DNA of 64,000 bases from Xestospongia muta (taxonomy: Eukaryota; Porifera; Demospongiae; Haplosclerida; Petrosiidae). The stretch lies in contig OY848921.1 in the NCBI GenBank assembly GCA_963693285.1, positions 7,267,229 to 7,331,228 of the forward strand, in the 5' to 3' direction. Under the pieces are notes generated by a model, which saw only the letters and a program-made list of their open reading frames with translations, was not told where the DNA came from and ran no database searches. Both the position numbers and the translations under genes were made by a program. Of the stretch, positions 11,054-63,091 are shown one piece after another. How positions within the stretch are numbered: the first letter of the stretch is position 1; each line of letters begins with the position of its first letter.

Positions 11054-12949
11054 ATGATCTTCTGTCTACTAATGTGCTTTTTGCCACTATTACTACTACA
11101 AGGAAGTAAGTAATAATCCCTCAGTTTAATTTAATAACACATCTAGTACCTGTAGATAGTAGTTGTAAGGAAGGAGAACTTGGATACAGCTCCATGAATA
11201 CCAATATACTACAGATCTGTAGTGGAAATGTGTGGAAGGATATTTGTGCTAAACCAGGCTCTAATCAATGGAGTGAAAATGAAGCTAGAGTGGCTTGTTA
11301 TCAAATGGAAATGGTATGGGCAGAAGGATCAGGTATTGTAGTTGTGCTAATTTTCTTAATTAAAAAGTTTATTTTCTACTCAGACATCAAATTAAATACT
11401 ACTAAGAGTTTTTCAAGCATCGTGTATTCTAAACGTTTTTCTTGTTCTGGATTAGAAGAAAAACTCATAAACTGTTCAGTTGATTATTACATACATAGTT
11501 GTTACTACTATGATCATGGTAATTCCAACAGTTACTGGTATGCAACAGCTAAATGTGTTGAAGGTATACTATATCACTAATCAATCTTGTACAAATATAT
11601 ATTTTATAGCTAATCAGTCCTGTATATCTGGAAGTCTGTCATTAGTAGACATTTTTTGGAAAATCTGTGCATTTGGTCAATGGAACACACTCTGTGGTAA
11701 TACTTGGACATTAGGTCAGGTAAAAGTAGCTTGTAGACAACTGGGAAAAAATCCAATTGGTATGATTATCACCATTTGAGATTAGTAATTATTTTAAAAA
11801 TAATGCTATATATAGGAGCTAAATACACACTTGTATCTAGCAAGGAGCCCATTCCAGTGATGAATGCTTATTTTAGCTGCAATGGTACTGAGAAGGACTT
11901 TAGAAAATGTACAGTACACAGGATCTCAAGATGTGATATGAAGTCAAATTTACTGAAACCAGGACTTACCTGTGGAGGTATCCTTTGACTATCTTAAACT
12001 TTCAAAAATGTGACATGTATAGTTTATTTTTTTAGTGAACCCTCCTAAGAATCTATTGACTCATTCACTGAACTTCTCAGTGTATATACAATGGAATTAT
12101 AATATGACAAATGATACAGTACATTTTAATGTTTACTGTACTACTATAAAACAACAACAAAGCACAAGATATTCTAAGACAGTATTATATAATGATAACA
12201 GTACTACAATTAATACATCTATTACTGGTTTATTACCTAATACTACATACACATGTTGTGTATTAGCAGTAACATCATATGGAGAGAGTGAACCAGTATG
12301 TCAAAATATCACTACTACTAATACAAGTAATTAATATTATGTACTAAGTCATATAACAATATCTATCATCTCTTCTCCTATAATGACAGTGTATACTAAT
12401 TCAACTACAAATGGTGATACAACTACTAGTACTAGTGAATCAGTATGTCAAAATATCACTACTACTAATATAAGTAATTAATATTATGTACTAAGTCATA
12501 TAACAATATCTATCATCTCTTCTCCTACAATGACAGTGTATACTAATTTAACTACAAATGGTGATACAACTATTAGTACTAGTGAACCAGTATGTCAAAA
12601 TATCACTACTACTAATATAAGTAATTAATATTATGTACTAAGTCATATAACAATATCTATCATCTCTTCTCCTACAATGACAGTGTATACTAATTCAACT
12701 ACAAATGCTGATACAACTACTACATATATATTATTGGGTGGTATAGTTACCAGTATTATTACTAGTAGTATTATTACTGCTATTACAATGACAGGAATGT
12801 TCTTGTTCTGTCGAAGATCTATAAAGACTAAAGTAAAATCCACTACACCTCAAGTAGTGTCTCCTGTGATCTATGATGAACTGAATATAACTCATGATTC
12901 TGACTTCCCAGTATCTGATAATCCAGCTTATGATCCAGCATACATTTAA
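11054..12949 (+). CDS. SRF1: SRCR-SRCR-FN3 receptor, short ITIM-like tail
   Basis: A type I membrane receptor of 481 aa when spliced as 11054-11105, 11156-11332, 11384-11563, 11610-11759, 11816-11977, 12036-12326, 12390-12473, 12537-12620, 12684-12949. Every junction is GT-AG in phase 1 and the frame is open throughout. Order: signal MIFCLLMCFLPLLLL, SRCR1 (about 19-136), SRCR2 (about 137-240; FGQWNTLCGNTW, ACRQLG), FN3 (about 241-337; LLPNTTYTCC, SYGES), two near-identical 28-aa stalk exons, TM (about 408-435, YILLGGIVTSIITSS) and a basic stop-transfer. The tail holds VIYDEL (Y457), which fits the ITIM consensus, NPAY (Y476) and Y480. An inhibitory role is inferred from motifs only. The closest relative is SRF3. 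Confidence 0.85.
12327..12683 (+). repeat. 147-bp intron-exon tandem duplication in SRF1
   Basis: Unit 12327-12473 is repeated at 12474-12620 and partly at 12621-12683 with exactly 147-bp spacing. Each unit is a 63-bp intron (GTAATTAAT...GACAG) plus an 84-bp symmetric exon encoding YTNSTTNGDTTTSTSE, then VCQNITTTN, which copies the end of the FN3 exon. Because the exon is 3n and phase 1-1, the duplication lengthens the stalk by 28 aa per copy without changing frame. Confidence 0.9.
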
Positions 12950-13395
12950 AATATAACTGTTTTATTGTTATATGTATTTAATTCTCAGTTGTTATGTTAA
13001 ATGATTCTGTTATTAACATGGTAACATATCATTTACTGATCTTGTGCAAAAGTTTTACAATATTATTTCAATTTATTTGTTTAGTCTTTAAGTTATTTAC
13101 ATTTATTACAAGCTCACTTCTATAAAATGGCGACTTTAATGATAACATTAGTAGGAAAGGGTGTGGCACTTGCACATAATCTGTGAGATAATTACATTTA
13201 AATTTGGTGGCTACAATTAGTAAATTTGGTTTTCCATGGAGTACAATTTATACAATCAAAATAAATATATAAAATTGCAAGTAGAGAACTGTTTTCATTG
13301 CTGTATTCACATATTACCACTCCATAATCCAAATAAGACAATATAATTATGACTCATATCACACTTCCTTGATAGGCATAAACAAATTTATTATC
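12950..13395. other. 3' flank of SRF1, no gene seen
   Basis: AT-rich, and homologous to 26184-26626 after SRF3. It presumably contains the 3' UTR and intergenic DNA of the short-tail receptor. Confidence 0.5.
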
Positions 13396-13886
13396 TAGAT
13401 CATAGGTGTGCGCAAAGGATTTGAAGTGTGGAAGAGTAAATTTTTTAGAGAATTATTTATTTATTTGCGCGTGGCTTCAAATAACAAATTATTATAATTT
13501 GATTATTCTTGGTCCATTACAGCAAAACTATCAATAACAGTATTAATGGGTAATTTATCATTTAAGTCATTCTCAACAAATAGTATCATAAGGTCTTCCA
13601 ATCTGTTGTGATGATGTAGAGCGAAATTTATTCTTAACTATTGCTAGTTTATTAAAACTTTTAGTAAACTTGTATTTGAAACATATCCTGATGAATCTGT
13701 TATCTCTTCAACTCTCTTCAGACTCTTCTCTCTTTTGAGTCTCTTCAAACTGCTGTAATTGCTGTTGAGCCTCAGTAGCAGTGGTAGGAAAACTGGGAAA
13801 AAATCTCCTTATATCCATTGTGCCATATGATGATCAGCAAAGAGTTAGAAAGAGCCCCAAGCCCCCCTGTGCACATCTATGATCTA
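13396..13886 (-). mobile_element. Decayed DNA transposon, hAT-like (copy 1)
   Basis: A 491-bp element bounded by 19-bp imperfect terminal inverted repeats, TAGATCATAGGTGTGCGCA on the left and TGTGCACATCTATGATCTA on the right. On the minus strand near 13818 an open start reads MDIRRFFPSFPTTATEAQQQ, followed by a Gln/Glu-rich stretch that then stops. That start style resembles the N-terminus of some zinc-finger hAT transposases, but no catalytic domain is present. The same element sits at 26627-27080 with the same flanks, so it was duplicated with the block rather than inserted twice. The superfamily assignment is tentative. Confidence 0.55.
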
Positions 13887-14323: not shown

Positions 14324-16450
14324 ATGATGTTTCTCTGTCTACTAATTTATCTGCTGCCAAAAGGTATAGTCATTGCAAATTATACATTCAGTTTTGATAT
14401 TCACGTTATATATAACAATAAGTGTTGGCAAACAAATGCTCTAAAAATGGAGATCTTAGATTCAGTCCATCAAACAGTCATATACTACAGATCTGTACTG
14501 AAGATAAATGGAGTGATATTTGTGCTAAACCAGGCTCTAATCAATGGGGTAAAAATGAAGCTAGAGTGGCTTGTTATCAAATGGAAATGCTATGAAGAAA
14601 AGGATCAGGTATTGTAGTTGTGCTAATTTTCTTAATTAAAATGTTTATTCTCTACTCAAACATAAAATTAAATGGTATTGGAACTTTTTCAGGCATTGTT
14701 TATTCTAAAACTTTTTCTTGTTCTGGATTAGAAAAAAACTCATTAACTGTTCAGTTGATGATCACGTATATAGTTGTTACTACTATGAACCAAGGGGGAT
14801 GTTGGCACTTAGGCCACTCCAGCGATGGCCGGACCACTTTTCAACCACTTTTTATATATATATTATATATAGAAAGTATAAAGTTTATCATATATCAGAA
14901 GCACTTTAGTTCAATGAATTTTGACTTCAGATTGCACCAGGAGCTAGTCTCTGAAGCCATCAATTCATAAATTTCCTGGGGCATGCCCCCAGACCCCCTA
15001 GAATGTTTTAGTCCATGGACTGACCATTTCAAAATAGCCGATGCAGCCCCTGTGAACATAATAAATCTAGCCATTACTGGTATGCAACAGCTAAATGTAT
15101 TAAAGGTATACTATATCGCTAATCAATCTTGTACAAATGTATATTTTATAGGTAATCTGTCCTGTATATCTGGAAGACTGTCATTAGTAGACATTTTTTT
15201 GAAAATCTGTGTATTTGGTCAATGGCACACACACTGTGGTAATACATGGACATTAAGTCAGGTAACATAACTTATAGACAACTGGGAAGAAATCCAATTG
15301 GTATCATTATTATTACAATTATAAACATAACTATTTTATTTATTGTTTGCTCCTAAATTATTAGAACTTCTCAGTGTATATACAATGGAATTATAATATG
15401 ACAAATGATACAGTACATTTTAATGTTTACTGTACTACTATGAAGCAACAACAAAGCACAAGATATTCTAATACAGTATTATATAATACAAACAGTACTG
15501 TTAATGCATCTATTACTGGTCTATTACCTAATACTACATACACATGTTGTGTATTAGCAGTAACATCATATGGAGAGAGTGAACCAGTATGTCAAAATAT
15601 CACTACTACTAATGTAATATGTAAGTGTACTGTATATAATTATGTGATATATGTAGCACAAAACAAAATAATACGATTAGTTAATGTGATAATCTTGTTC
15701 CTTAAAAGTAGCATGTCACTAATAATAATTATGACAACTGTCACTAACTGTTACAATAACTCTGTTTGCTAATCTAACAAATGAGTATACATGAGTAGGT
15801 ACTGTTTCTTAATCACAAATGATTATTTATTTTGAGTGATTTTGTTTTATGTACAAAGATACAACCTGGTCTCATATCTTTGTATTTCATATCATAGTAT
15901 CCATTGTCACCATGACAACTGGCACTCCTACTAGTACATCTCAGTCCTGTACTCAATGTACATCTGGTGCTTCATGGGCAGGTGGTGGTATACTAGTGGG
16001 TATGGTTAGTGGTGTTCTTGTGATGATCATAGTGTGGGTGATAGTGACAGTGATTAGCAAGAAGAAGTCAATAATTGATAGGAAAAGATATATAGAAAGG
16101 TTTAGTATGACCATTATTGTTAAATTTTTGTCATTTATATTTTTAGATCACATGATGATGGGCACCAACTAAACATAGGAGTTCTTGATAATCCATCATA
16201 TGAGGAAAACATCATACAAAGTACACAATCCAATAGTAACACTCAAGGTACAGATCTTCCTTAGGACCAGTATTTAATTCCTGTTAATATAAAGTCTAAA
16301 ACAATTACTAGTAATTCACAAGTCAATGATATCAGTGGTGATGTTCCTTCTTTTATTTATCAAGATGGTGTTCAAATGGAAGAAATATATTCATTAGCTG
16401 ATAATCAGCAAGTTGGAGAAGGTTTGTATAATCATCTCCAAAGGAATTGA
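14324..16450 (+). pseudogene. SRCR-SRCR-FN3 receptor, multiply broken (sister of SRF4)
   Basis: Signal exon 14324-14363 (MMFLCLLIYLLP), SRCR1 first half to about 14607, second half interrupted, SRCR2 first exon at about 15153-15262, FN3 at about 15364-15616, stalk/TM at about 15860-16100, tail from 16147. Lesions: a TGA in place of a Trp codon near 14594; a GC-richer insertion at 14790-15070 inside the second SRCR1 exon; a stop in SRCR2 (QVT then TAA); loss of the second SRCR2 exon and of the FN3 start; a TAG in the tail near 16262. The tail still shows NPSY, IYSLADN and LYNHL. It occupies the same place relative to SRF1 as SRF4 does to SRF3. Confidence 0.85.
14790..15070. mobile_element. GC-richer insertion in an SRCR1 exon
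   Basis: About 280 bp unlike its AT-rich surroundings (GGCCACTCCAGCGATGGCCG, GGGGCATGCCCCCAGACCCC) separates CTACTATGAAC from CATTACTGGTATGC, which are contiguous in sister exons. It replaces a few bases of the exon. It looks like a transposon fragment. I see no terminal repeats and cannot assign a family. Confidence 0.55.
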
Positions 16451-19099: not shown

Positions 19100-21480
19100 A
19101 TGATCTTCTGTCTACTAATGTGGTTTTTGCCACTATTACTACTACAAGGAGGTAAGTAATAGTCCCTCAGTTTAATTTTAATTTAATAACACATCTAGTA
19201 CCTGTAGATAGTAGTTGTAGTGAAGGAGAACTTAGACACAACTCCATGAAAAGTGATATATTACAGATCTGTAGTGGACACGTGTGGAAGGGTATTTGTG
19301 CTAAACCAGGGTCTAATCAATGGAGTGAAAATGAAGCTAGAGTGGCTTGTTATCAAATGGGAATGGTATGGAAAGAAGGATCAGGTATTGTAGTTGTGCT
19401 AATTTTCTTAATGAAAAACTTTATTTTCTACTCAGACATCAAATTAAATACTACTGAGATATTATCAGGCGTTGTTTATACTAAATCTTTTTCTTGTTAT
19501 GGATTAGAAGAAAAACTCATAAACTGTTCAGTTGATGACTACATACATAGTTGTTACTACTATGATAATGGTAATTCCAACAGTTACTTGTATGCAACAG
19601 CTAAATGTATTGAAGGTATACTATATCACTAATCAACCTTGTACAAATATATATTTTATAGCTAATCAGTTTTGTAAATCTGGAAGTCTGTCATTAGTAG
19701 ACATTTTTTTGAAAATCTGTGCATTTGGTCAATGGCACACACTCTGTGGTAATACTTGGACATTAGATCACGTAAAAGTAGCTTGTAGACAACTGGGAAA
19801 AAATCCAATTGGTATGATTATCACCATTTGAGATTAGTAATTATTATAATAATAATGCTTTACATATATATAGGAGCTAAAAACACACTCGTATCTAGCG
19901 AGGAGTCCATTCCAGTAATGAATGCTTATTTTAGCTGCATTGGTACTGAGAAGGACTTTAGAAAGTGCACAGTATATAGGATCTCAAGATGTGATATGAA
20001 CTCAAATTTACTGAAACCAGGACTTACCTGTGGAGGTATCCTTTGACTACCTTAAACTTTCAAAAACATGACATGTATAGTTTATTTCTTTAGTGAACCC
20101 TCCTAAGAATCTATTGACTCATTCACTGAACTACTCAGTGTATATACAATGGAATTATAATATGACAAATGATACAGTACATTTTAATGTTTACTGTACT
20201 ACTATAAAACAACAACAAGAAAACACAAGATATTCTAAGACAGTATTATATAATGATAACAATATTGTTAATACATCTATTACTGGTCTATTACCTAATA
20301 CTACATACACATGTTGTGTATTAACAGTAACATCATATGGAGAGAGTGAAACAGTATGTCAAAATATCACTACTACACCTACTAAAACTATTTCTAATAC
20401 TAGATGTAAGTATATGATGTATTATTATTGTGCATTGTTCATTTACCCTATGTTTACTTCTAAACTACTACCTAATGATTATATTTGTGATCTGTTTGCT
20501 ATGCAGGTAGTATATGCTCTGATATATCCAATGTTGTTGTGACAACTGTCAATACTATTACCATAACTACATTTCCTAATGTAACAGGTAAATATACTAT
20601 AAATATGTGTATTGTTCATTTGATTACTTAATCGATAACTTGTTATTTTTATGTGTTTATTGACACAGGCATGACCTGTTCTCGTACTACTGATCCAATA
20701 ATATTGACTGTTTTCACAACAACTGGTATTCCTGTTAGTATTACTCCTGTTACAATAACTAAGTCTGCTTATACAACAGGTAATTATACTATATATAATA
20801 TACACATTACGTACATTGTTCATATGATAATTTAATTGATGATTTATTCCTTCTCATATGACTGTATACAACTGTATTGGAATCAACTGTTTTATAACAG
20901 CTATTACTCATGTTACCATATCTCCATCCTGTATTATTAATTCAACATGTATACAAACACCTTCTCCTATTGTAAGTAGTGATACATTTACTAGTGGTGG
21001 TCCATGGGCAGCAGGTGGTATACTGGTGGGTGTGGTGAGTGGTGTTTTTGTGATGGTGATGATGTGGGTTATAGTGACAGTATTCAGGAAAAAGATGACT
21101 GGTACAAAAAGTAATGAGAATAGGTAATCTATGTATAATTCCAATGTGATAAACTTCTGGACTCTTTCAGATCAAATGATGATGAGCACCAACTAAACAT
21201 AGGAACTGTTGGTAATCCTTCATATGAACAAACCATCATCCAAAGTACACAATCCAACAGTAACTATCAAGGCAGAGACATCACTGAGACTCCTTACTTG
21301 ATTCCTGTTAACATCAGGTCTAATACATCGACTAATACATGTACTTTACAAGTTAATGATACCAATAGTGGTGTTCCTTCTTTCATTTATCAAGAGAATG
21401 TTCAAATGGAAGGAGTATACTCATTAGTTGATGATCAGCAGACTGGAGAAAGTCTGTATAATCAACTCCAAAGGAACTGA
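19100..21480 (+). CDS. SRF2: SRCR-SRCR-FN3 receptor, long stalk, ITAM-like tail
   Basis: Spliced as 19100-19151, 19208-19384, 19436-19615, 19662-19811, 19874-20035, 20094-20405, 20507-20587, 20669-20779, 20901-21123, 21171-21480, it gives 585 aa with no stop. Signal MIFCLLMWFLPLLLL; SRCR1 to about 136; SRCR2 to about 240 (GQWHTLCGNTW, ACRQLG); FN3 to about 337 with a Pro/Thr extension; two extra stalk exons (81 and 111 bp, both phase 1-1; CSDISN and MTCSRTTD starts); TM about 444-468 (WAAGGILVGVV). The tail has NPSYEQ and Y566-SLV-x9-Y579-NQL; the second motif also fits the ITIM form SLYNQL. SRF6 has an identical exon plan and length. The ligand is unknown and an activating role is inferred. 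Confidence 0.88.
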
Positions 21481-23229: not shown

Positions 23230-23313
<84 letters not shown>

Positions 23314-24469: not shown

Positions 24470-26183
24470 ATGATCTTCTGTCTACTAATGTGCTTTTTAC
24501 TATCACTACTACTACAAGGAAGTAAGTAATAATCCCTCAGTTTAATTTAATAACACATCTAGTACCTGTAGATAGTAGTTGTAAGGAAGGAGAACTTGGA
24601 CACAACTCTATGAAAAGTGATATACTACAGATCTGTAGTGGAGGTGTGTGGAAGGATATTTGTGCTAAACCAGGTTCTAATCAATGGAATGAAAATGAAG
24701 CTAGAGTGGCTTGTTATCAAATGGGAATGGCATGGAAAAAAGGATCAGGTATTGTAATTGTGCTAATTTTCTTAATTAAAATGTTTATTCTCTACTCAGG
24801 CATAAAATTAAATAATACTGGGAGTTTATCTGGGATTGTTTATTCTAAAACGTTTTTTTGTTCTGGATTAGAAGAAAACCTCATAAACTGTTCAGTTGAT
24901 GATGACATAAGCACTTGTTACTACCAAAAACATAATTCCAACCAATACTATTATGCAACAGCTAAATGTGTTAAAGGTATATTATATCACTAATCAATCT
25001 TGTACAAATATATATTTTATAGCTAATCATTCCTGTATATCTGGAAGTCTGTCAATCGTAGACAAAGGTTTGAAAATCTGTGTATTTGGTCAATGGCACA
25101 CACTCTGTGGTAATACTTGGACGTTAGGTCAGGTAAAAGTAGCTTGTAGACAACTGGGAAGAAATCCAATTGGTATGGTTATCACCATTTTGAGATTAGT
25201 TGTTATATTAAAAATAATGCTATATATATAGGAGCTAAAAACAGACTTGTATCTAGCAAGGAGTCCATTCCAGTAATAAATGCTTATTTTAGCTGCAATG
25301 GTACTGAGAATGACTTTAGAAAATGTACAGTACACAGGATCTCAAGATGTGATATGAAGTCAAATTTACTGAAACTAGGACTTACATGTGGAGGTATCCC
25401 TTGACTATCTTAAACTTTCAAAAATATGACATGTATAGTTTATTTCTTTAGTGAACCCTCCTAAGAATCTATTGACTAGTTTACTGAACTTCTCAGTGTA
25501 TATACAATGGAATTATAATATGACAAATGATACAGTACATTTTAATGTTTACTGTACTACTATAAAACAACAACAACAACAAAGCACAAGATATTCTAAG
25601 ACAGTATTATATAATGATAACAGTACTACAATTAATACATCTATTACTGGTCTATTACCTAATACTACATACACATGTTGTGTATTAGCAGTAACATCAT
25701 ATGGAGAGAGTAAAGTGTTGTGTGAAAATATCACTACTACTAATGTAATAAGTAAGTGTACTGTATATAATTATGTGATATACATAGCACACAGCAAAAT
25801 TATATGATTAGTTATTGTGATAATCTTGTTCCCTAAAAGTAGCATTATAGTGTTATTATGACAACTGTCACTAACTGTTACAATAACTCAGTTTGCTAAA
25901 CTAAATGCTAAATGTTAGCATATGCTGTATATTAGTATGTACTGTTCCTTTACTATATATAATTAATAATTGGTGTATAGTTACCAGTATTATTACTAGT
26001 AGTGTTATTACTGCTATTACAATGACAGGAATGTTCTTGTACCGTCAAAGATCTATAAAGACTAAAGTAAAATCCACTACTTTAGAAACAGTGTCTCCTG
26101 TGATCTATGATGAACTTAATATAACTCATGATTCTGATTTCCCAGTATCTGATAATCCAGCTTATGGTCCAGAATACATTTAA
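24470..26183 (+). CDS. SRF3: SRCR-SRCR-FN3 receptor, no stalk, ITIM-like tail
   Basis: Exons 24470-24521, 24572-24748, 24800-24976, 25023-25172, 25232-25393, 25452-25751, 25981-26183 give 406 aa, open and in phase 1 at each internal junction. Signal MIFCLLMCFLLSLLL; SRCR1 has a shortened variable loop (CYYQKHNSNQYYYATAKC); SRCR2 and FN3 are close to SRF1. The stalk found in SRF1 is gone. The acceptor TATAG lies where SRF1 encodes GGIV, so FN3 joins TM (ITSIITSSVITAITM) after only a few residues. The tail has VIYDEL (Y382) and NPAY (Y401), nearly identical to SRF1. An inhibitory role is inferred from the motif. The acceptor choice is the least certain part of the model. Confidence 0.8.
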
Positions 26184-27515: not shown

Positions 27516-29853
27516 ATGATGTTTCTCTGTCTACTAATTTATCTGCTGCCAGAAGGTATAGTCATTGCAAATTATACATTCAGTTTATGTTATAACTATA
27601 AGTGTTGGCAAACAAATGCTCTAAAAATGGAGATCTTAGATTCAGTCCATTAAAAAGTCATATACTACAGATCTGTACTGAAGATAAATGGAGTGATATT
27701 TGTGCTAAACCAGGCTCTAATCAATGGAGTGAAAATGAAGCTAGAGTGGCTTGTTACCAAATGGAAATGGCATGGGCAGAAGGATCAGGTATTGTAGTTG
27801 TGCTAATTTTCTTAATTAAAATGTTTATACTCTACTCAGACATAAAATTAAATACTACTAATGGGAGTTTTTATGGCATTGTTTATTCTAAAACGTTTTC
27901 TTGTTCTGGATTAGAAGAAAAACTCATAAACTGTTCAGTTGATGATCACATATATAGTTGTAGCTATGGTAATTCCAGCCATTACTGGTATGCAACAGCT
28001 AAATGTGTTGAAGGTATACTATATCACTAATCAATTTTGTACAAATATATATTTTATAGCTAATCATTCCTGTACATCTGGAAGTCTGTCATTAGCAGAC
28101 ACATTTTTGAAAATATGTGCATTTGGACAATGGCACACACTCTGTGGTAATACTTGGACATTAGGTCAAGTAAAAGTAGCTTGTACACAACTGGGAAAAA
28201 AACCAATTGGTATGATTATCACCATTTGAGATTAGTTATTATTTTAAAAATAATGCTATATATAGGAGCTAAAAACAGACTTGTATCTAGCAAGGAGTCC
28301 ATTCCAGTAATGAATGCTTATTTTAGTTGCAATGGTACTGAGAATGACTTTAGAAAATGTACAGTACACAGGATCTCAAGATGTGATATGAACTCAAATT
28401 TACTGAAACCAGGACTTACATGTGGAGGTATCCTTTGACTATCTTAAACTTTCAAAAATATGACATGTATAGTTTATTTCTTTAGTGAGCCCTCCTGAGA
28501 ATCTATTGACTCACTCACTGTCTTACTCAGTGTATATACAATGGAATTATAATATGACAAATGATACAGTACATTTTAATGTTAACTGTACTACAATAAC
28601 ACTACAACAACAAAAAAGCACAATATATTCTAAGACAGTAATATATAATGATGACAATACTTTTAATACATCTATTACTGGTCTATTACCTAATACTACA
28701 TACACATGTTGTGTATTAGCAGTAACATCATATGGAGAGAGTAAAGTGGTGTGTGAAAATATCACTACTACTAATGTAATAAGTAAGTGTACTGTATATA
28801 ATTATGTGATATATGTAGCACACAGCAAAATTATATGATTAGTTAATGTGATAATCTTGTTCCCTAAAAGTATCATTTCACTTATAATACATATATACAT
28901 ATATATAGTGTTATTGTGACAACTGTCACTATAACTGTTACAATAACTCATTTTGCTAATCCAATGCTAAATGTAAGAGTATGCTGTATATTAGTATGTA
29001 ATGTTCCTTTACTATATATAATTAATACCTTTGTTATTTTCATTTGTCTGTTGACACAGACAAGACCTGCTCTTGTGCTAATACTACATACGCATGTTGT
29101 GTATTAGCAGTAACATCGTATGGAGAGAATGAATCAGTGTGTGAAAATATCACTATTACTACTGAAACAAGTAAGTGTACTGTATATAATTATGTGATAT
29201 ACATAGCACAAAACAAATAATATGATTAGTTAATGTAATAAATAATCTTGTTCCCTAAAAGTAGCGTGTCACATATAATACATATATACATATATATAGT
29301 GTTATTGTGACAACTGTCACTAACTGTTACAATAACTCAGTTTGTTAGTCTAACAAATGAGTATACATTAGTAGGTACTGTTTTTTTATCCCAAATGATT
29401 ATTTATTTTGAGTGATATTGATTTTGTACAAAAATATGACCTACTCTAGTCATATTGTTAATATCATATTATTCATTGTCACCATGACAACTGGCACTCC
29501 TGCTACCACATCTCAGTCCTGTGCTCAATGTACACTTAATTCAACATGTATACAAACACTTCCTCCTATAGTAAGTACATCTAATAGTGGTGCTTTATGG
29601 GCAGGTGGTATACTGGTGGGTATTGTGAGTGGTATTCTTGTGATGATCATAGTGTGGGTGATAGTGACAGTAGTTAACAAGAAGTCAATAATTGATAGGA
29701 AAAGAAAAATAGAAAGGTTTAGTATGATTATTATTATTGAGATTTGTCAGTTATATTTTTAGATCACATGATGATGGGCTGCAACTAAAGATGGGAGATA
29801 ATCCATCATATCAGCAAACCATCATACAAAGTAATCAACTCCAAAGGAATTGA
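27516..29853 (+). CDS. SRF4: SRCR-SRCR-FN3 receptor with shortened tail
   Basis: A workable model of 504 aa: 27516-27555, 27603-27788, 27840-28013, 28060-28209, 28266-28427, 28486-28782, 29060-29170, 29413-29716, 29763-29853. Signal MMFLCLLIYLLP. SRCR1, SRCR2 and FN3 are intact. Exon 29060-29170 is chimeric: a stalk-type start (KTCSC) joined to a second copy of the FN3 end (TTYACCVLAVTSY). TM is about 436-461 (WAGGILVGIVSGILV). The tail is only about 30 residues: NPSYQQTII then NQLQRN. It equals the family tail with an in-frame internal deletion that removes all distal tyrosines. Two acceptors are weak or displaced (AAG at 27602; TTTTGAG at 29412, because the usual ACAG is lost), so I am less sure that this gene is expressed as a membrane protein. 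Confidence 0.65.
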
Positions 29854-31190: not shown

Positions 31191-31244
31191 AAGTTTATTG
31201 TTTAAGTGTACAGGCAGTAATTAAAGAAAAGTAACTTCATATTT

Positions 31245-32567
31245 CTTGTCTATTAATGTACTTTTTACTGCTACTACTACCACTACAAGGAGGTAGGTAA
31301 TTTATAAGCTTAGTCCCTCAGTTGTATTCTTTAACAAATCAGTACTTGTAGATGATAATTGTAATGAAGGAGACCTTGAACAAGTTCCATGAATACTAAT
31401 ATACTACAGATCTGCAGTGAAAGTATGTGAAGATACATTTGTGCTAAATCATTCTCTTACCAATGGAGTGAAAATGAAGCTAAAGTGGCTTGTTATCAAA
31501 TGGGAATGTCATGGGAAGAAGGATCAGGTATTGTTGCTGTACTAATTTTCTTAATTATATGATTTATTGTCAAGTTACTATTTCAAGTGCATTGTCTGCA
31601 AATTTAATGGTTCAATCTGTGGCACATCATCAGTAAACATACTTTTGGACTATAATATGACAGATGACACAGGTCATTTTAATGTTTATTGTACTACTTT
31701 GAAGCAACAACAAAGCACGAGATATTCTAAGACAGTATTATATAATTGAGACAGTACTGTTAATACATTTATTACTGGTCTATTACCTAATACTACATAC
31801 ACATGTTGTGTATTAGCAGTAACATCATATGGAGAGAGTAAAGTGGTGTGTCAAAATATCACTACTACTAATGTAATAAGTAAGTGTACTGATTTTTATA
31901 TGTTGTTCTGTGTCCTCCTGTTATGATCATAATTATTATTTTACACAGATATAACTTGCTCTTGTATTACTGATATAATAGTATCAGCTGTTCTCATAAA
32001 AACTGTTACTCCTGTTACAATATCTCAGTCTTGTACTCTCAATTCAACACAAATTCAAACACCTCTCATTGTGAGTAGGGATATATTTCTTAGTGGTGGT
32101 CCATAGGGAGCTAGAGGCATGATGGTAGGTGTGGTGGTGAGTGGTGTTCTTATTATGATATGGGGATTAGTAGCAGTGATTAGGAAAATGAGAAGAAACA
32201 CTAATATGAAAGATATGATGGAAGGTAATTTCTTTACAATTCTTTTATTTACTAGACGCTTTCAGATTACGAGATAGGTAACAAACTAGACATGGGAGCC
32301 CTTAGCAATCCTGTATATGAACAAAGCAATATCCAAAGTATACAATCTAACATTACTTATCAAGGCACAGATCTTCCTGGGAACCAGTACTTAATTCCTG
32401 TTAATGTAAAGTCAAAAACAATGACTAGTAATTCACAAGTCAATAATACCAGTGGTGGTGTTCCTTCTTTTATTTATCAAGATGATGTTCAAATGGAAGA
32501 TGTATACTCATTAGCTGATGATCAGGAGACTGGAGAAGGTTTGTACAATCAATTCCAAATAAATTGA
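31245..32567 (+). pseudogene. SRCR-FN3 receptor, internally deleted pseudogene
   Basis: Head like 3440-3706 but with the ATG lost by a small deletion. The first SRCR1 exon, about 31348-31527, is frameshifted. About 30 bp of intron remains, then about 60 bp of unrelated sequence leads into FN3 (31643-31880, DDTGHFNVYCTT), which contains an in-frame TGA. A stalk/TM exon follows at about 31950-32225 with TAG in place of the PW Trp, then a tail ending at 32567. The second SRCR1 half and all of SRCR2 are missing. The tail is open: NPVYEQ, DVYSLADD and LYNQF, so neither distal tyrosine has a full YxxI/L/V. Confidence 0.8.
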
Positions 32568-33060
32568 GAAGGAGACAACAACAAAATTACTGTCAGAAAT
32601 CTTGATTTTTACTAAGCCTTGTTATTTTATTATTATATATAATTATGTATTGAGGTGATTTTTACAAATTAGATTTTCAAGCATACAATGTTTAACTTCA
32701 ACTATTGCAAGGGGCTTTATGGATAAATAGATGCATAGAGAATCTATGTTTGAATGGATAGTTGGATGGATGGATAGATGGTCGGACAGATACACTACAT
32801 GAGCATGTGATTATTTGGTATAAAGATGAATAGAGGACAGATAATTGGAAAATGAATGCAAGGAAGGACTGTTTTTGTTACAATTCACATTATCATAATG
32901 ATCTATGTTATAACTGATCTGTTTACATTGACTAACACATCACTACTACATTCTTGATAATTCTAAGTTAATCAGTCAATAAGATGGCTTTCTCTCTTCT
33001 TTTTTGTTGTTGTCATGTTTCTCTATTTATATTGTTTGGATAATCTTATTTGTTTACACA
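32568..33060. other. Intergenic with degenerate GGAT repeats
   Basis: A short GGAT/GATA-rich patch (about 32755-32790) lies in AT-rich DNA. No coding or RNA feature is seen. Confidence 0.5.
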
Positions 33061-33061
33061 C

Positions 33062-33865
33062 TAGTCGTGATCAATGGGTAAGTGGTATACTGATGGGTGT
33101 GGTAAGTGACATTCTTGTGATAGTGATGGTGTGGGTGATGGTAACAATAGTCAGGAGAAAGAAGACTGCTAAAAATAATGAAGACAGGTAATCTATGTAT
33201 AATTCTATAGTAACACATTTTGTAGGCTTTTATGGTCACATGATGTCAGTCACCAACTAAAAATGGAAATCCACAGTAATCCTACATGTGAACAAAACAT
33301 CATCGAATATACCTAATCCAACAGTAACTATCAAGGCAGAGATCTTCCTGAGGACCACTATTTAATTCCTATTAAAGGAGTATCGAGGACAATGACTAGT
33401 AATCAATGGGTAAGTGGTATACTGATGGGTGTGGTAAGTGACATTCTTGTGATAGTGATGGTGTGGGTGATGGTAACAATAGTCAGGAGAAAGAAGACTG
33501 CTAAAAATAATGAAGACAGGTAATCTATGTATAATTCTATAGTAACACATTTTGTAGGCTTTTATGGTCACATGATGTCAGTCACCAACTAAAAATGGAA
33601 ATCCACAGTAATCCTACATGTGAACAAAACATCATCGAATATACCTAATCCAACAGTAACTATCAAGGCAGAGATCTTCCTGAGGACCACTATTTAATTC
33701 CTATTAAAGGAGTATCGAGGACAATGACTAGTAATTCACAAGTTAATGATACCAGTTCTGTGCGTCCCTCTCAAAATGATAATCTTCAAATTGAAGGAGT
33801 ATACTTATTAGTTGATGGTAAGTAGATTAAAGTAAGTCATCACAATTATCTCAAAAAGAGATTAG
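33062..33865 (+). pseudogene. Receptor TM-tail fragment, internally duplicated
   Basis: A TM segment (WVSGILMGVVSDILVIVMVW) with RRKK stop-transfer and a tail exon (HQLKMEIHSN). In the tail the usual NP-x-Y is NPTC and a TAA follows shortly after (EYT stop). The TM-plus-tail piece is repeated once (next entry), after which the tail continues to GVYLLVDGK and loses frame. There are no ectodomain exons upstream. Confidence 0.7.
33071..33734. repeat. 332-bp tandem duplication
   Basis: 33071-33402 and 33403-33734 appear identical by eye, including the intron between TM and tail. Each begins TCAATGGGTAAGTGG and ends ATGACTAGTAA. The absence of visible differences points to a very recent duplication or an assembly artefact. 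Confidence 0.9.
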
Positions 33866-39758: not shown

Positions 39759-41990
39759 ATGATCTTCTGTTTACTAATGTGTCTTTTGCTACTACTATAT
39801 CTATTACAAGGAGGTAAGTACTAATCCCTCCATTTAATAAATTAATAATTTAATAACACATCTAGTACCTGTAGATAGTAGTTGCAAGGAAGGAGAACTT
39901 AGACACAACTCCATGAATACCAATATACTACAGATCTGTAGTGGAAATGTGTGGAAGGATATTTGTGCTAAACCAGGCTCTAATCAATGGGGTGAAAATG
40001 AAGTTAGAGTGGCTTGTTATCAAATGGGAATGGTATGGGAAGAAGGATCAGGTATTATAGTTGTGCTCATTTTCTTAATTAAAATGTTTATTCTCTACTC
40101 AGACATAAATTTTAAAACTGTTAGGAGTTATTCAAACAACATTTATTCTAAAAATCTTTCTTGTTCTGGTTTAGAAGAAAACCTGATAAACTGTTCAGTT
40201 GATGATCACATATATAGTTGTAGCTATGATGGATCAGATAATTCCAACCGTTACTGGTATGCAACAGCTAAATGTATTAAAGGTATACTATATCACTAAT
40301 CAATCTTGTACAAATATATATTTTATAGCTTATCGGTCCTGCATATCTGGAAGTCTGTCATTAGTAGATAAAATTTTGAAAATCTGTGCATTTGGTCAAT
40401 GGCACACACTCTGTGGTAATACTTGGACATTAGGTCAGGCAAAAGTAGCTTGTAGACAACTGGGAAGAAATCCAATCGGTATGATTATCACCATTTGAAA
40501 TTAATAATTGTTTTAAAAACAATGCTATATATAGGAGCTAAAAACAGACTTGTACCTAGCAAGGAGTCCATTCCAGTAATGAATGCTTATTTTAGCTGCA
40601 ATGGTACTGAGAATGACTTTAGAAAATGTTCAACACATAGGATCTCAAGATGTGATATGAAGTCAAATTTACTGAAACCAGGACTTACATGTGGAGGTAT
40701 CCTTTGACTGTCTTAAACTTCAAAAATATGACATGTATAGTTTATTTCTTTAGTGAACCCTCCTGAGAATCTATTGACTCATTCACTGAACTACTCAGTG
40801 TATATACAATGGAATTATAATATGACAAATGATACAGTACATTTTAATGTTTACTGTACTACTATAAAACTACAACAACAAAGCACAAGATATTCTAAGA
40901 CAGTATTATATAATGATAACAATACTGTTAATACATCTATTACTGGTCTATTATCTAATACTACATACACATGTTGTGTATTAGCAGTAACATCATATGG
41001 AGAGAGTGAACCAGTATGCCAAAATATCACTACTACTAATGTAACAAGTAAGTAACTGTATTGTATATAGTTATGTGATACACACATAGCAAAAATGACA
41101 ATTGTTTAATGTAATAATTTTGATATAATGCATAGATGATATATATATATATATATATATATATAGTGTTATTGTATTGTATGTATGTATGTATTTACAC
41201 GTGTGTGTGTATATCAATTGCTATTATGTCAACTTTCATTTACTGTTAGAATAACTTTGTTTACTAATCTATCAAATGAGTATACAATATATGACTATGT
41301 ACTGCTTTTTGTCCCAAATAATTGTTTTTTTATTTGTTTACACAGATATGAACAACTCAAATATCACAACTATCACTGTATCCACTGTCACCATGACAAC
41401 TACTAGTACTCCTGCTACTACATCTCAGTCCTGTGCTCCATATACACTTAATTCAACATATATACAAACATCTCCTCCTATTGTAAGTAGTGATACATCT
41501 ACTAGTGTGGGTGTTTCGTGGGTTGGTGGTATACTTGTGGGTGTGGTGTTTGGTGTTCTCATGATGATCATAGTGTGGGTGATAGTCACAGTTGTTAAGA
41601 AGAAGAAGACGATAATTGATCAGAAAAGAAATATAGAAAGGTTTAGTATGACCATTATTATTGAGCTTCATTAGTTATATTTTTAGATCACATGATGTTG
41701 AGCACCAACTAAACATGGGAGGCCTTGATAATCCATCATATGAGCAAACCATCATACAAAGTACACAATCCAATGGTAACACTCAAGACACAGATCTTCC
41801 TGAGGACCAGTACTCAATTGCTGTTAATATAAAGTCAAAAACAATGACTAGTAATTCACAAATCAATGATACCAGTGGTGGTGTTCCTTCTTTTAATTAT
41901 CAAGATGATATTCAAATGGAAGGAATATACTCATTAATTAATGGTGAACAAGTTGGAGAAGCTCTCTATAATCATCTCCAAAGGAATTGA
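39759..41990 (+). CDS. SRF5: SRCR-SRCR-FN3 receptor, ITAM-like tail
   Basis: The cleanest member. Exons 39759-39813, 39875-40051, 40103-40282, 40329-40478, 40535-40696, 40754-41047, 41346-41640, 41687-41990 give 538 aa. Signal MIFCLLMCLLLLLYLL; SRCR1 about 20-137 (CSGNVWKDICAK; variable loop SCSYDGSDNSNRYW); SRCR2 about 138-241; FN3 about 242-338 with many N-x-S/T sequons (NMT, NDT, NTS, NTT, NIT); Thr/Ser stalk about 340-397; TM about 398-423 (WVGGILVGVVFGVLMMIIVW) then KKKK. The tail has NPSYEQTII, DQYSIAV and Y519-SLI-x9-Y532-NHL, which fits YxxI-x9-YxxL. An activating signalling role through SH2-domain kinases is inferred from the motif; no other evidence is in the window. Confidence 0.92.
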
Positions 41991-46179: not shown

Positions 46180-46544
<365 letters not shown>

Positions 46545-46930: not shown

Positions 46931-48946
<2,016 letters not shown>

Positions 48947-49990: not shown

Positions 49991-52355
49991 ATGATCTTCT
50001 GTCTACTAATGTGCTTTTTACTATCACTACTACTACAAGGAAGTAAGTAATAATCCCTCAGTTTAATTTAATAACACATCTAGTATCTGTAGATCGTAAT
50101 TGTAATGAAGGAGAACTTAGACACAACTCTATGAAAAGTGATATACTACAGATCTGTAGTGGAGATGTGTGGAAAGATATTTGTGCAAAACCAGGTCCTA
50201 ATCAATGGAATGAAAATGAAGCTAGAGTGGCTTGTTATCAAATGGGAATGGTATGGAAAAAAGGATCAGGTATTGTAGTTGTGCTAATTTTCTTAATTAA
50301 AATGTTTATTCTCTACTCAGGCATAAAATTAAATATTACTGGGAGTTTATCTGTGATTGTTTATTCTAAAACATTTTTTTGCTCTGGATTAGAAGAAAAC
50401 CTCATAAACTGTTCAGTTAATGATGACATAGGCACTTGTTACTACCAAAAACATAATTCCAACCAATACTATTATGCAACAGCTAAATGTGTTAAAGGTA
50501 TACTATATCACTAATCAATCTTGTACAAATATATATTTTATAGCTAATTATTCCTGTATATCTGGAAGTCTGTCAATCGTAGACAAAAGTTTGAAAATCT
50601 GTGCATTTGGTCAATGGCACACACTCTGTGGTAATACATGGACATTAGGTCAGGCAAAAGTAGCTTGTAGACAACTGGGAAGAAACCCAATTGGTATGAT
50701 TATCACCAATTGAGATTAAAAATTATTTTAAAGTAATGCTATATATAGGAGCTAAAAACACACTTGTATCTAGCAAGGAGTCCATTCCAGTAATAAATGC
50801 TTATTTTAGCTGCAATGGTACTGAGAATGACTTTAGAAAATGTACAGTACACAGGATCTCAAGATGTGATATGAAGTCAAATTTACTGAAACCAGGACTT
50901 ACATGTGGAGGTATCCTTTGACTATCTTAAACTTTCAAAAATATGACATGTATAGTTTATTTCTTTAGTGAACCCTCCTAAGAATCTATTGACTAGTTTA
51001 GTGAACTTCTCAGTGTATATACAATGGAATTATAATATGACAAATGATACAGTACATTTTAATGTTTACTGTACTACTATGAAACAACAACAACAAAGCA
51101 CAAGATATTCTAAGACAGTATTATATAATGATAATAATACTGTTAATACATTTATTACTGGTCTATTACCTAATACTACATACACATGTTGTGTATTAGC
51201 AGTAACATCATATGGAGAGAGTGAACCAGTATGTCAAAGTAACATTACTACACCTACTAAAACTATTTTTAATGCTAAAAGTAAGTATATGTTGTATATT
51301 ATTGTGTACTGTTCATTTACCCTATGTTTACTTCTAAATTACTACTTAATGATTATATTTGTGATCTGTTTGCTATGCAGGTAGTATATGCTCTGATATA
51401 TCCAGTGTTGTTGTGACAACTGTCAATACTATTACCATAATTACGTTAACTAATGTAACAGGTAAATATACTATACATATGTGTACTGTTCATTTGATTA
51501 TTTAATTGATAACTTGTTATTTTTATGTGTTTATTGACACAGGCATGACCTGTTCTCGTACTACTGATGCAATAATATTGACTGTTTTCACAACAACTGG
51601 TATTCCTGTTAGTATTACTCCTGTTATAATAACTAAGTCTGCTTATACAACAGGTAATTATACTATATATAATATACACATTACTGTACATTGTTCATAT
51701 GATAATTTAATTGATGATTTATTCCTTCTCATATGACTGTATACAACTGTATTGGGATCAACTGTTTTATATCAGCTATTACTCATGTTACCTCATCTCC
51801 ATCCTGTATTATTAATTCAAGATGTATACAAACACCTTCTCCTATTGTAAGTAGTGATACATTTACTAGTGGTGGTCCATGGGCAGCAGGTGGTGTACTG
51901 GTGGGTGTGGTGAGTGGTGTTTTTGTGATGGTGATGATGTGGGTTATAGTGACAGTATTCAGGAAAAAGATGACTGATACAAAAAGTAATGAGAATAGGT
52001 AATGTATGTTTAATACCAATGTGATATATTTGTGGACTCTTTCAGATCAAATGATGATGAGCACCAACTAAACATAGAAGCTATCGGTAATCCTACATAT
52101 GAACAAACCATCATCCAAAGTACACAATCCAATAGTAACTATCAAGGCAGAGACATCACTGAGACTCCTTACTCGATTCCTGTTAACATCAGGTCTAATA
52201 CATCGACTAATACATGTACTTTACAAGTTAATGATAGCAATAATGGTGTTCCTTCTTTCGTTTATCAAGAGAATGTTCAAATGGAAGGAGTATACTCATT
52301 AGTTGATGATCAACAGACTGGAGAAAGTCTGTATAATCAACTCCAAAGAAACTGA
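49991..52355 (+). CDS. SRF6: SRCR-SRCR-FN3 receptor, long stalk, ITAM-like tail
   Basis: Exons 49991-50042, 50093-50269, 50321-50497, 50544-50693, 50749-50910, 50969-51280, 51381-51461, 51543-51653, 51776-51998, 52046-52355, with the stalk, TM and tail plan of SRF2. The total is 1755 nt (584 aa) against 585 in SRF2, because the second SRCR1 exon is 3 bp shorter. The SRCR1 half resembles SRF3 (CYYQKHNSNQYYYATAKC), while stalk, TM (WAAGGVLVGVV) and tail resemble SRF2, so the gene looks like a recombinant of the two. The tail ends YSLV-x9-YNQL with NPTYEQ upstream. All junctions are GT-AG, phase 1 (phase 2 before the tail). Signalling role inferred from motif. Confidence 0.88.
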
Positions 52356-56658: not shown

Positions 56659-58915
56659 ATGATATCTATTTTATTATTATACTTTTTATTTCTATTACTA
56701 CTACAAGGAGGTAAGTAATTTATAAACCTAGTCACTCAGTTGTGTGTATTAACACATCTAGTACTTGTAGATAGTAATTGTAATGAAGGAGCCCTTATAT
56801 ACAGGTCCATGGAAACTGATATACTACAGATCTGTAGTGAAAATGAATGGAAGTATATTTGTGCTAACCCAGGCTATAACCTATGGAGTGAAAATGAAGC
56901 TAGAATGGCTTGTTATCAAATGGGAATGGTATGGGCAGAAGGATCAGGTATTGTAGTTGTATTAACGTTCATAATTAAAAGGTTTATTCTCTACTGTAAC
57001 ATAGAATTAAAACTTTTAGGAGATTATTCAAGCCCTATGTATTCTAAAACTCTTTCTTGTTCTGGATTAGAAGAAAAACTCATAAACTGTTCAGTTGATG
57101 ACTACATATATAGTTGTTACTACGATGGATCAGATAATTCCAACTGTTACTGGTATGCAACAGCTAAATGTATTAAAGGTATACTATATTACTAATCAAT
57201 CTTGTACAAATATATATTTTATAGCTAATCTGTCCTGTATATCTGGAAGTCTGTCATTAGTAGGCAAAATTTTGAAAATCTGTGCATTTGGTCAATGGCA
57301 CACACTCTGTGGTGATACTTGGACATTAAGTCAGGAAAAAGTAGCTTGTAGACAACTGGGAAAAAATCCATTTGGTATGATTATCACCATTTGAGATTAG
57401 TAATTATTTTAAAAATAATACTATATATATAGAAGCTAAATACACACTTGTATCTAGCGAGGAGTCCATTCCAGTAATGACCGCTTACTTTAGCTGCAAT
57501 GGTACTGAGAATGACTTTAGGAAATGCTCAACACACTGGATCTCAAAATGTGATATTAAGGCAAATTTACTAAAACCGGGACTTACTTGTGGAGGTATCC
57601 TTTGACTATCTTAAATTTTCAAAAATATGACATGTATAGTTTATTTCTTTAGTGAACCCTCCTAAGAATTTATTGACTAGTTTACTGAACTACTCAGTGT
57701 ATATACAATGGAATTATAATATGACAAATGATACAGTACATTTTAATGTTTACTGTACTACTATAAAGCAACAACAACAAAGCACAAGATATTTTAAGAC
57801 AGTATTATATAATGATAACAATACTGTTAATACATTTATTACTGGTCTATTACCTAATACTACATACACATGTTGTGTATTAGCAGTAACATCATATGGA
57901 GAGAGTGAACCGGCATGTCAAAATATCACTACTGCTAATGTAACAAGTAAGTAACTGTGCTGTATATAATTATGTGATACACACATAGGAAAAACAAAAT
58001 GACAATTGTTTAATGTAGTAATTTTGTTCCTTAAAGGTAGCATGTCATTAATATAATACATACATGATATAAATGTGCATGTATATACATATATGTATAT
58101 AGTGCTATTGTATATGTGTGTGTGTGTGTATATATATATATATCAATTGCTATTGTGACAATTGTCATTCACTGTTAGAATAACTCAGTTTACTAATTAA
58201 ACAAATAAATATACAGTACATGAGTATGCACTGCTTTTTATCACAAATGAATGTTTATTTAATTTGTTTACACAGATATGAACCACTCAAATATCACAAC
58301 TATCACAGTATTTACTGTCACCATGACAACTGGCACTTCTGCTACCACATCTCAGTCCTGTGCACCATGTACACTTAATTCAACATATATACAAGCACCT
58401 CCTTCTATAGTAAGCGGTAGTACATCTAATAGTGGTGCTCCATGGTCAGGTGGTGTACTGGTGGGTGTGGTGAGTGGTGTTATTGTGATGATCGTAGTGT
58501 GGGTGATAGTGACAGTGATTAGCAAGAAGAAGTCAATGATTGATAGGAAAAGAAATATAGAAAGGTTTTGTATGACTATGATTATTGAACTTTTGTCAGT
58601 TGTATTTTTAGATCACATGATGTTGCGCACCAACTAAACATGGGATGCCTTGATAATCCATCATATGAGCAAAACATCATACAAAGTACACCATCCAACA
58701 GTAACACTCAAAGTACAGATCTTCCTGAGGACCAGTACTCAATTCCTGCTAATGTAAAGTCAAAAACAATGACTAGTGATTCACAAGTCAACGATACTAG
58801 TTTTGGTGTTTCTTCTTGTATTTATCAAAATGATGTTCAAATGGAAGGAATATACTCATTAATTAATGGTGAACAAGTTGGAGAAGGTCTCTATAATCAT
58901 CTCCAAAGGAATTGA
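56659..58915 (+). CDS. SRF7: SRCR-SRCR-FN3 receptor, ITAM-like tail
   Basis: Exons 56659-56710, 56771-56947, 57005-57178, 57225-57374, 57433-57594, 57653-57946, 58276-58564, 58612-58915 give 533 aa. Signal MISILLLYFLFLLLL is more divergent than in sisters. The usual CTACTCAG acceptor before the second SRCR1 half is mutated (CTACTGTAAC); an ATAG a few bases on restores phase 1 and costs about two residues. SRCR1 loop CYYDGSDNSNCYW has an extra Cys. SRCR2, FN3, stalk and TM (WSGGVLVGVVSGVIVMIVVW) are intact. The tail has NPSYEQ and Y514-SLI-x9-Y527-NHL, as in SRF5. Activating role inferred from motif. Confidence 0.85.
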
Positions 58916-61190: not shown

Positions 61191-61202
61191 AAAAAGTTCA
61201 TT

Positions 61203-63091
61203 ATGATCTTCTGTCTACTAATGTGCTTTTTGCTATCACTACTACTACAAGGAAGTAAGTAATAATTCTCAGTTTAATTTAATAACACATCTAGTACCTG
61301 TAGATAGTAGTTGTAATGAAGGAGAACTTGGATACAGCACCATGAATAACAATATACTACAGATCTGTATTGAAGATAAATGGTATGACATTTGTGCTAA
61401 ACCAGGTTCTAATCAATGGGGTGAAAATGAAGCTAGAGTGGCTTGTTATCAAATGGGAATGGCATGGAAAGAAGGATCAGGTATTGTAGTTGTGCTAATT
61501 TTCTTAATTAAAATGTTTATTCTCTACTCAGACATAAAATTAAATACTACTAGGAGTTTTTCAGGGATCGCTTATTCTAAAACGTTTTTTTGTTCTGGAT
61601 TAGAAGAAAAACTCATAAACTGTTCAGTTGATGATCACATAAATAGTTGTCACTACTATGAACATAATTTTAACCATTTCTTGTATGCAACAGCTAAATG
61701 TGTTGATGGTATACCATATCACTAATCAATCTTGTGCAAATATATATTTTATAGCTAATCATTCCTGTATATCTGGAAGTCTGTCAATCGTAGACAAAAG
61801 TTTGAAAATCTGTGTATTTGGTCAATGGCACACACTCTGTGGTAATACTTGGACGTTAGGTCAGGTAAAAGTAGCTTGTAGACAACTGGGAAGAAATCCA
61901 ATTGGTATGATTATCACCATTTGAGATTAGTTGTTATATTAAAAATAATGCTATATATATAGGAGCTAAAAACAGACTTGTATCTAGCAAGGAGTCCATT
62001 CCAGTAATGAATGCTTATTTTAGCTGCAATGGTACTGAGAATGACTTTAGAAAATGTACAGTACACAGGATCTCAAGATGTGATATGAAGTCAAATTTAC
62101 TAAAACCAGGACTTACCTGTGGAGGTATCCTTTGATTATCTTAAACTTTCAAAATATGACATGTATAGTTTATTTCTTTAGTGAACCCTCCTAAGAATCT
62201 ATTGACTCATTCACTGAACTACTCAGTGTATATACAATGGAATTATAATATGACAAATGATACAATACATTTTAATGTTTACTGTACTACTATGAAGCAA
62301 AAACAGATTAGTTTGTATTCTAGGACAATATTATATAATGATAACAGTACTACAATTAATACATCTATCACTGGTCTGTTACTTAATGCTACATACACAT
62401 GTTGTGTATTAGCAGTAACATTATATGGAGAGAGTGAACCAGCATGTCAAAATATCACTACTACTAATGTAACAAGTGAGTGTATTTTATATTGTTTAAC
62501 TAGGATAAACTATTTGATATATCTATTTTAATGTAATGATCTTGTTTACTTACAAAGGTAACATTTGCTCTTATGTTATTGATATAACTAGTGTTATTAT
62601 GACAACTGTCACTCAGTCTGTTAGTCCAACAAGCAAGTATACAGTACATAATTATGTACTATTTGTTTTTCCTAAATGATTGTTTATACTCAATAATGTT
62701 TGGATGATCTTATTCTGTTTACACAGGTGGTAGCAGTACATGTACTAGTGTTGGTCATTGGATAGGTGGTATACTGGTTGGTGTGGTAAGTGGTGTTCTT
62801 GTGATGGTGATGGTGTGGGTGATAGTGACAATAGTCAAGAGAAAGAAAACTGACGCAAAAAATAATGAAGATAGGTAATCTAAGTATAATTCTATAGTGA
62901 TACATTTTGTGGACTTTTTCAGATCAAATGATGATGGTTACCAACTAAACATAAGTACCCTCAGTAATCCGACATATGAACAAAACAACATCAAAAGTAC
63001 ACAATTCAACAGTAACTATCAAAGTAAGGACCTTATTGAGACTGCATACTCAATTCCTATTAACATCAAGTCCAATACATGCACTTTATAA
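61203..63091 (+). CDS. SRF8: SRCR-SRCR-FN3 receptor, tail cut by stop codon
   Basis: Exons 61203-61254, 61304-61480, 61532-61708, 61755-61904, 61963-62124, 62182-62475, 62558-62632, 62727-62874, 62923-63091 give 467 aa. Signal, SRCR1 (ICIEDKWYDICAK; loop CHYYEHNFNHFLYATAKC), SRCR2 and FN3 are intact. Exon 62558-62632 starts after AAAG and uses a GC donor (GCAAGT). TM is short-stalked (WIGGILVGVVSGVLVMVMVW). The tail has NPTYEQ and AYSIPI, then CAA to TAA ends it at 63091. Downstream, the old frame stays open to 63220 and would have encoded GVYLLADDQ and LYNQL. The stop is therefore recent and leaves a receptor without the distal tyrosine pair. Confidence 0.78.

Follow-up and report, generated by a model that had tools for sequence, protein, structure and literature searches.

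In the sponge Xestospongia muta, a 64,000-nucleotide stretch of contig OY848921.1 (C5:7267229-7331228, hereafter the window; the genome comprises 158 Mb in 28 contigs) lies within a large tandem array of receptor genes that combine two SRCR domains and an FN3 domain with tails carrying conserved tyrosine motifs. We give a probability of roughly 0.5 to the reading that these genes encode recognition or engulfment receptors with phosphotyrosine docking tails, possibly organized as paired receptors. An initial annotation of the window had noted a tandem receptor family in which a pair of tail tyrosines resembles an immunoreceptor tyrosine-based activation motif (ITAM), and had suggested an immune or recognition role. 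The array is real and large and the tail tyrosines are kept, but the ITAM label fails for the family; judged from sequence, an engulfment-type or paired-receptor reading fits the data better.

An exon-peptide search of the window reveals a series of tandem copies, all on the + strand. Six genes are intact in our splice models, with GT-AG borders at all modelled introns and no internal stops, and they follow a single plan: a signal peptide, two SRCR domains, an FN3 domain, a stalk, a transmembrane helix and a tail. In the modelled genes each SRCR domain is encoded by two exons. The four intact genes with a long tail lie at 19100..21480 (G4; 10 exons, 585 residues, with a Thr/Ser-rich stalk), 39759..41990 (G8; 8 exons), 49991..52355 (G9; 10 exons) and 56659..58915 (G10; 8 exons, 533 residues), and they prove spliceable, as first proposed. 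Two further intact genes, at 11054..12949 (G2; 7 exons modelled, extra stalk exons possible) and 24470..26183 (G5; 7 exons), bear a short tail; these, together with two genes with cut tails at 27.6-29.85 kb and 61.2-63.2 kb and several broken copies, add to the initial annotation. Ectodomain junctions are in phase 1, so that exons are exchangeable without loss of frame, and in the four long-tail genes the junction into the tail exon divides AG from a following A. In the models the transmembrane exon is joined to the long-tail exon at 21123|21171 (G4), 41640|41687 (G8), 51998|52046 (G9) and 58564|58612 (G10), and the short-tail segment is reached at 12326|12684 in G2, unless extra stalk exons intervene, and at 25751|25981 in G5. 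Briefly, the exon borders of G4 were read straight from the sequence and splice sites of the other copies lie at matching positions; the splice script took the nearest in-phase AG and GT, favouring GT-AG sites, and the donor of the G10 FN3 exon was set to the GTAAGT after 57946 over the script's nearer GT.

Domain searches bear out the predicted ectodomain. In both proteins scanned, G4 and G10, Pfam SRCR matches two stretches each above its cut-off (62.2 and 68.7 bits against 26.1), and fn3 passes its cut-off of 25 in one (25.9) and falls short in G4 (22.2). PDB matches include CD163, CD5L and CD6. A whole-protein search (7995 candidates scored) returns 11 proteins, ten of them SRCR-containing and one roundabout-like, two bearing Ephydatia-type names; a plasmid search with G4 yields zero matches.

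Searching the whole genome with the FN3 exon (150 of 188 candidates scored) yields at least 120 matches at E<=0.001. At least 114 of them lie on one strand at C5:7245946-7609899, an array of about 360 kb of which the window is a part; the last two, past C5:7600963, are weak (24-31% identity). Such matches are exon pieces, sometimes two to a gene, so the gene total is below the match total, and how many genes are intact does not follow from them. Outside the array are the remaining six: a group of four at C5:3.30-3.32 Mb and single matches at C2:540673 and on C1. With the long-tail exon, 53 of 54 matches at E<=1e-3 are in the array and one is at C5:3310522. Each of the ten strong short-tail copies found in the genome falls within the array, interspersed among long-tail copies; weaker matches comprise one more in the array and several on C2. 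SRCR domains abound in this genome, with at least 173 exon-level matches. An isolated FN3 and SRCR2b exon copy, 80-83% identical to a window gene, stands on an off-array contig at C2:540673-541180.

Sponge SRCR expansions, including the combination with FN3, are described for Amphimedon, Aplysina, Dysidea and Halichondria in passages of PMC6208332 and PMC8242945, and tandem SRCR arrays in sponges in passages of PMC10855680; the X. muta genes are alike in all three respects. The largest tandem cluster given there for Amphimedon comprises nine genes, and an array in a sea urchin comprises sixteen (PMC10855680, in part); the X. muta array spans about 360 kb with at least 114 matches to the FN3 exon, these matches being exon pieces and not genes.

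The long tails were analysed in 33 of the 53 array copies found at E<=1e-3, some of the 53 being pieces of one tail. Those read are the best matches, so the sample leans toward conserved copies; five loci that re-cut places already in the set were left out of the count. In-frame stops occur in 10 of the 33; the other 23 are stop-free, and the column and rate tests use the 21 of these that are full-length, two ending early. In the four intact window genes the tails end as the initial annotation had them, YSL(I/V)-x9-YN(H/Q)L: a motif scan places YSLV-x9-YNQL at 21418 (G4) and 52293 (G9) and YSLI-x9-YNHL at 41928 (G8) and 58853 (G10). The NP(S/T)Y motif, said to lie about 60 residues upstream, is 63-65 residues from YSL in the alignment. 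Within the exon, the G4 tail (21171..21480) carries NPSY, YLIP, IYQ, YSLV and YNQL and the G10 tail (58612..58915) NPSY, YSIP, IYQ, YSLI and YNHL.

Among the tails read, several of these motifs are conserved above chance. Conservation of the five tyrosine columns exceeds that of randomly drawn sets of five (P 0.005), and the NPxY (P 0.010) and YxIP (P 0.025) columns likewise surpass random columns. NPxY is present in 22/23 stop-free tails against 2.6% of shuffled tails, and YxxP also in 22/23 against 19.8%, the copy lacking it being G8. An ITIM-like pattern, after the immunoreceptor tyrosine-based inhibitory motif (ITIM; [SIVL].Y..[LIV]), occurs in 10/23 long tails and 27.6% of shuffles. Most tails keep both tyrosines of the terminal pair (Y84 in 22/23, Y97 in 20/23), and 18/23 do so at x9 spacing; spacing is x8 in two, the second tyrosine is lost in one and two have no pair. 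The last tail tyrosine is followed by L at +3 in 17 of the 23 tails, and the first of the pair stands mostly in YSLA or YSLV. Pfam gives no match on three tail segments. No protein among 288 candidates matches G10 residues 395-533 at E<=10, a weak absence because candidates of full-protein length were required and spliced sponge proteins are probably few in the collection searched.

The pattern around the pair does not behave as an ITAM would. The strict pattern Y..[LI].{6,12}Y..[LI] is found in 2/23 stop-free tails and 2.5% of shuffled tails; of the four intact long-tail genes, only the two YSLI copies, G8 and G10, contain it. These are sister copies in a midpoint-rooted FastTree without support values, which probably reflects one event. 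At +3 from the first tyrosine of the pair, the residue is A in 11 tails, V in 7, I in 2 and P in 1, different or missing in two; the tail tree groups the I copies as a single pair, sets V at two separate points and shows A spread widely. Allowing V raises the count to 8/23, against 5.9% of shuffles, an excess that rests on the two strict tails and six tails of a second group. For the two +3 columns of the ITAM, conservation does not exceed that of tail columns drawn at random (P 0.77), nor does it for all four ITAM columns together (P 0.34). Given unconserved +3 columns and a strict pattern in 2/23 tails, the ITAM is not the feature being kept, and we reject it as a conserved feature of the family. 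The SRCR receptor CD5 offers a parallel: in passages of PMC5983667 its tail bears YSQP-x8-YPAL, a pseudo-ITAM whose +3 residues fit the motif poorly. CD5 and CD6 differ in having three SRCR domains of one exon each (PMC8158487, likewise in part), where the array genes have two, of two exons each, and FN3. The word 'ITAM' is absent from PMC6208332, PMC8242945 and PMC10855680, and titles and abstract openings contain no mention that we found of ITAM-like tails on sponge SRCR receptors, most subscription journals lying outside that scope.

The short tail forms a second class. Both G2 and G5 end in a transmembrane helix and about 45 residues containing VIYDEL and NPAY (segment 12725..12946 in G2). 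The DNA pattern for VIYDELNIT occurs at 8 exact places, and VIYDEL is exact in 8/10 short tails; seven further short-tail copies carry VIYDEL in five (all among those eight), VIYDEV in one and MIYDEL in one. We take VIYDEL to match the ITIM consensus. Since 18.5% of shuffled short tails also contain [SIVL]xYxx[LIV], it is the conservation of the motif and not its presence that counts, and the copies are young. Eight ectodomains, two from short-tail genes, were compared, and they include one near-identical pair with differing tails: short-tail G5 and long-tail G9 are 91% identical, against 72-86% for other pairs, and each is closer to the other than to its own tail class.

Enzymes of the kinds that could read such tails are encoded in the same genome, in which an SH2 search yields 76 exon matches. 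At C7:7839500-7846500, SH2-SH2-kinase exons form a Syk-family-like locus: the best 11 PDB matches are all SYK/ZAP-70, with two stretches each, and the kinase exons match Pfam PK_Tyr_Ser-Thr. A locus on C11 that combines SH2, ankyrin and kinase exons, and where a further SH2 domain is matched in part, is presumably Shark/HTK16-like, and one on C12, considered as a tandem-SH2 kinase, looks RasGAP-like to us. Five loci encode SHP-type SH2-SH2-phosphatases, one exon-split (C8:8076200-8080200) and four as single open frames (one near C5:8742000 and three in tandem at C3:11955300-11961500, the last of which extends past the stretch examined). The nearest named relative of an SHP-type frame among the 120 matches listed is from Amphimedon queenslandica (77% identity), and other named ones, Ephydatia, Dysidea, Oscarella and arthropods among them, are at about 53-61%; one further match reaches 97%. 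This agrees with a demosponge as the most likely source. Rows of SH2 matches also occur at C8 ~6531713-6583593, where the one frame read is a single-frame SH2-kinase, and at C6 ~217583-237933, where the one copy read is an SH3-SH2 frame with a kinase piece nearby. A Syk-family kinase is reported in Amphimedon in a passage of PMC9601881.

From these elements we infer how ligands, phosphorylation, partners and the outcome of signalling might be connected. The products would be single-pass surface receptors whose two SRCR domains and FN3 domain bind microbes, debris or other sponge cells as putative ligands. By analogy, the long tail would work most like that of CED-1, Draper and MEGF10: NPxY may recruit a putative PTB adaptor of the CED-6/GULP type and lead to uptake, and a candidate Src-type kinase would phosphorylate the tyrosines of YxIP, YSLx and YN(Q/H)L, providing docking sites for SH2 proteins, possibly among them tandem-SH2 kinases whose affinity would be low or would vary by copy. 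The short tail, presenting ITIM-like VIYDEL and NPAY beneath nearly the same ectodomain, could give a different output, perhaps via SHP-type phosphatases. The array may have an immune role.

Passages of PMC9388098 place the CED-1 NPXY at residues 962-965 and its YXXL at 1019-1022; the 63-65 residues between NPxY and YSL in the array are near this layout, which supports an engulfment-type tail plan. Draper and MEGF10 tails bear NPxY and an ITAM, and the ITIM of Draper-II is bound by the SHP homologue Corkscrew (PMC8092387, in part). The array proteins are like these receptors in having a single transmembrane helix, and may be like them in the order of NPxY and then YxxL or ITAM, with the ITIM of Draper-II as a possible counterpart of the short tail. 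These receptors differ in their EMI and EGF-like ectodomains and in the true ITAM of Draper and MEGF10, and the passages do not describe them as an array.

Rates of change, computed as pairwise ratios of nonsynonymous to synonymous differences (pN/pS), are uneven along the genes. The 21 open long tails give 0.56, with 1.29 over the first 13 residues, 0.37 in the NPxY block, 0.72 over residues 51-70 and 0.40 in the C-terminal YNQL block; short tails give 0.71 (8 copies). Ectodomain exons give 0.75 (SRCR1a), 0.99 (SRCR1b), 0.81 (SRCR2a), 0.44 (SRCR2b) and 0.77 (FN3). The most variable ectodomain columns, those with at least four different residues across the eight genes, number 11, and 8 of these fall within the SRCR1b exon, which supplies 60 of 344 positions (P 6e-5 with columns treated as independent). 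This clustering and the low values of the NPxY and C-terminal blocks speak for the docking-tail reading, as do the intact splice models, the motif conservation and the SH2 loci.

Several observations weigh against the docking-tail reading. The 12 tails with stops or an early end have a pN/pS of 0.62, near that of the open tails, and low values extend beyond the motifs (0.41 over residues 27-38) while motif stretches themselves are less constrained (YxIP 0.58, IYQ 0.72, YSLx 0.74). The 33 tails are 58-100% identical to that of G4; the long-tail copies are young, so motif conservation partly reflects common descent. The bootstrap range for SRCR1b, 0.67-1.63, overlaps those of other ectodomain exons. 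Finally, neither EMI nor EGF domains are matched by Pfam in the two proteins scanned, so what the array shares with CED-1 and Draper is the tail plan and perhaps the way it works, and the genes are not members of that group.

Among the alternatives, the best placed, itself rather unlikely, is that of paired receptors, in which long tails would activate and short ITIM-like tails would inhibit through SHP-type phosphatases, as at invertebrate allorecognition loci. The G5/G9 ectodomain identity, the interspersion of the two tail classes, the exactness of VIYDEL in most short tails and the five SHP-type loci all point in this direction. So does precedent: Hydractinia Alr and Botryllus FcoR are clustered allorecognition loci with ITIM/ITAM-type tails in passages of PMC12065747, and those of PMC11999971 count 41 Alr genes and describe CgIgIT2, an oyster immunoglobulin-type receptor with an ITAM. 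All come from invertebrates and carry an ITIM, ITAM or hemITAM in the tail; they differ in their immunoglobulin-type ectodomains and in having had their allorecognition or immune roles studied. The frequency of ITIM-like motifs in shuffles of short and long tails counts against pairing, as does the number of short-tail ectodomains read, two.

It is improbable that the proteins serve adhesion or aggregation, holding cells together with NPxY for integrin-like anchoring or turnover. A Geodia adhesion protein does join fibronectin, SRCR and complement-control modules (the title of Pahler 1998, cited in PMC10855680), but dozens of units and two tail classes are not obviously needed for that task, an argument from plausibility. 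Still less probable is a fast birth-and-death family with little tail function, whose motifs seem conserved because the copies are young; stops in 10/33 tails, many fragments and the weak constraint implied by 0.56, close to the 0.62 of the broken or short tails, agree with it, and the tyrosine, NPxY and YxIP columns exceeding random columns and six fully intact genes in 64 kb speak against it. Least probable of all is that the tyrosine pair is an ITAM recruiting a tandem-SH2 Syk-type kinase, which the two YSLI genes, the V-relaxed excess, the retained tyrosines and the C7 locus favour and the +3 residues and the sister relationship of the strict copies oppose.

The window holds other copies, all on the + strand. 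G6 (27611..29850) has a long-tail exon that ends early, after NPSY, and a signal-peptide exon that was not located upstream of 27603; G11 (61203..63217) has a stop-free ectodomain and a tail exon with an in-frame stop ahead of the YSL/YNQL pair. Upstream of the range first annotated, the G1 copy (3773..5962) has an open tail with YSLA-x8-YNHL, and its FN3 exon matches in its first part, with a stop inside. A broken long-tail copy at 14431..16447 has stops in its SRCR match and tail; another broken copy (31241..33858) retains a stop-free tail with YSLA-x9-YNQF and has two decayed tail duplicates. The copy at 14431 apparently has a different signal peptide (MMFLCLLIYLLPKG), seen in one frame at 14306-14430, and the start of SRCR1 in the copy at 27611 is similar to that of the copy at 14431. 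Between receptor copies, a hydrophobic open frame (GKYYMLLEYISQFYRTLVPTPLWF...) recurs at window positions ~474, 22648, 45595, 48061 and 53517; neither Pfam, above its cut-off, nor PDB gives a match to the one copy tested. Long CT/TC dinucleotide runs at 46181-46544 and 48649-48811 probably account for overlapping long open frames near 46.1-46.9 kb.

Sponge SRCR expansions have been catalogued by domain, and signalling is not covered in the passages of the papers cited here. With its conserved phosphotyrosine tails of two classes, and with SH2 enzymes to match them in the genome, the array offers a testable path by which an early-branching animal might couple recognition to uptake or signalling. 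A further possibility, rather unlikely on present sequence evidence, is a sponge paired-receptor locus of dozens of SRCR-FN3 units on one strand, in which near-identical ectodomains carry either an NPxY/pseudo-ITAM tail or a short ITIM-like one. Syk or Shark kinases and an expanded set of SHP phosphatases would read these tails, for microbe discrimination or allorecognition. Finding a YxxL-like pair in some copies is not enough to call a family ITAM-bearing, and this caution applies here. If such a locus were confirmed, balanced tyrosine-motif recognition, as in ascidians and cnidarians, would extend to sponges with an unrelated ectodomain.

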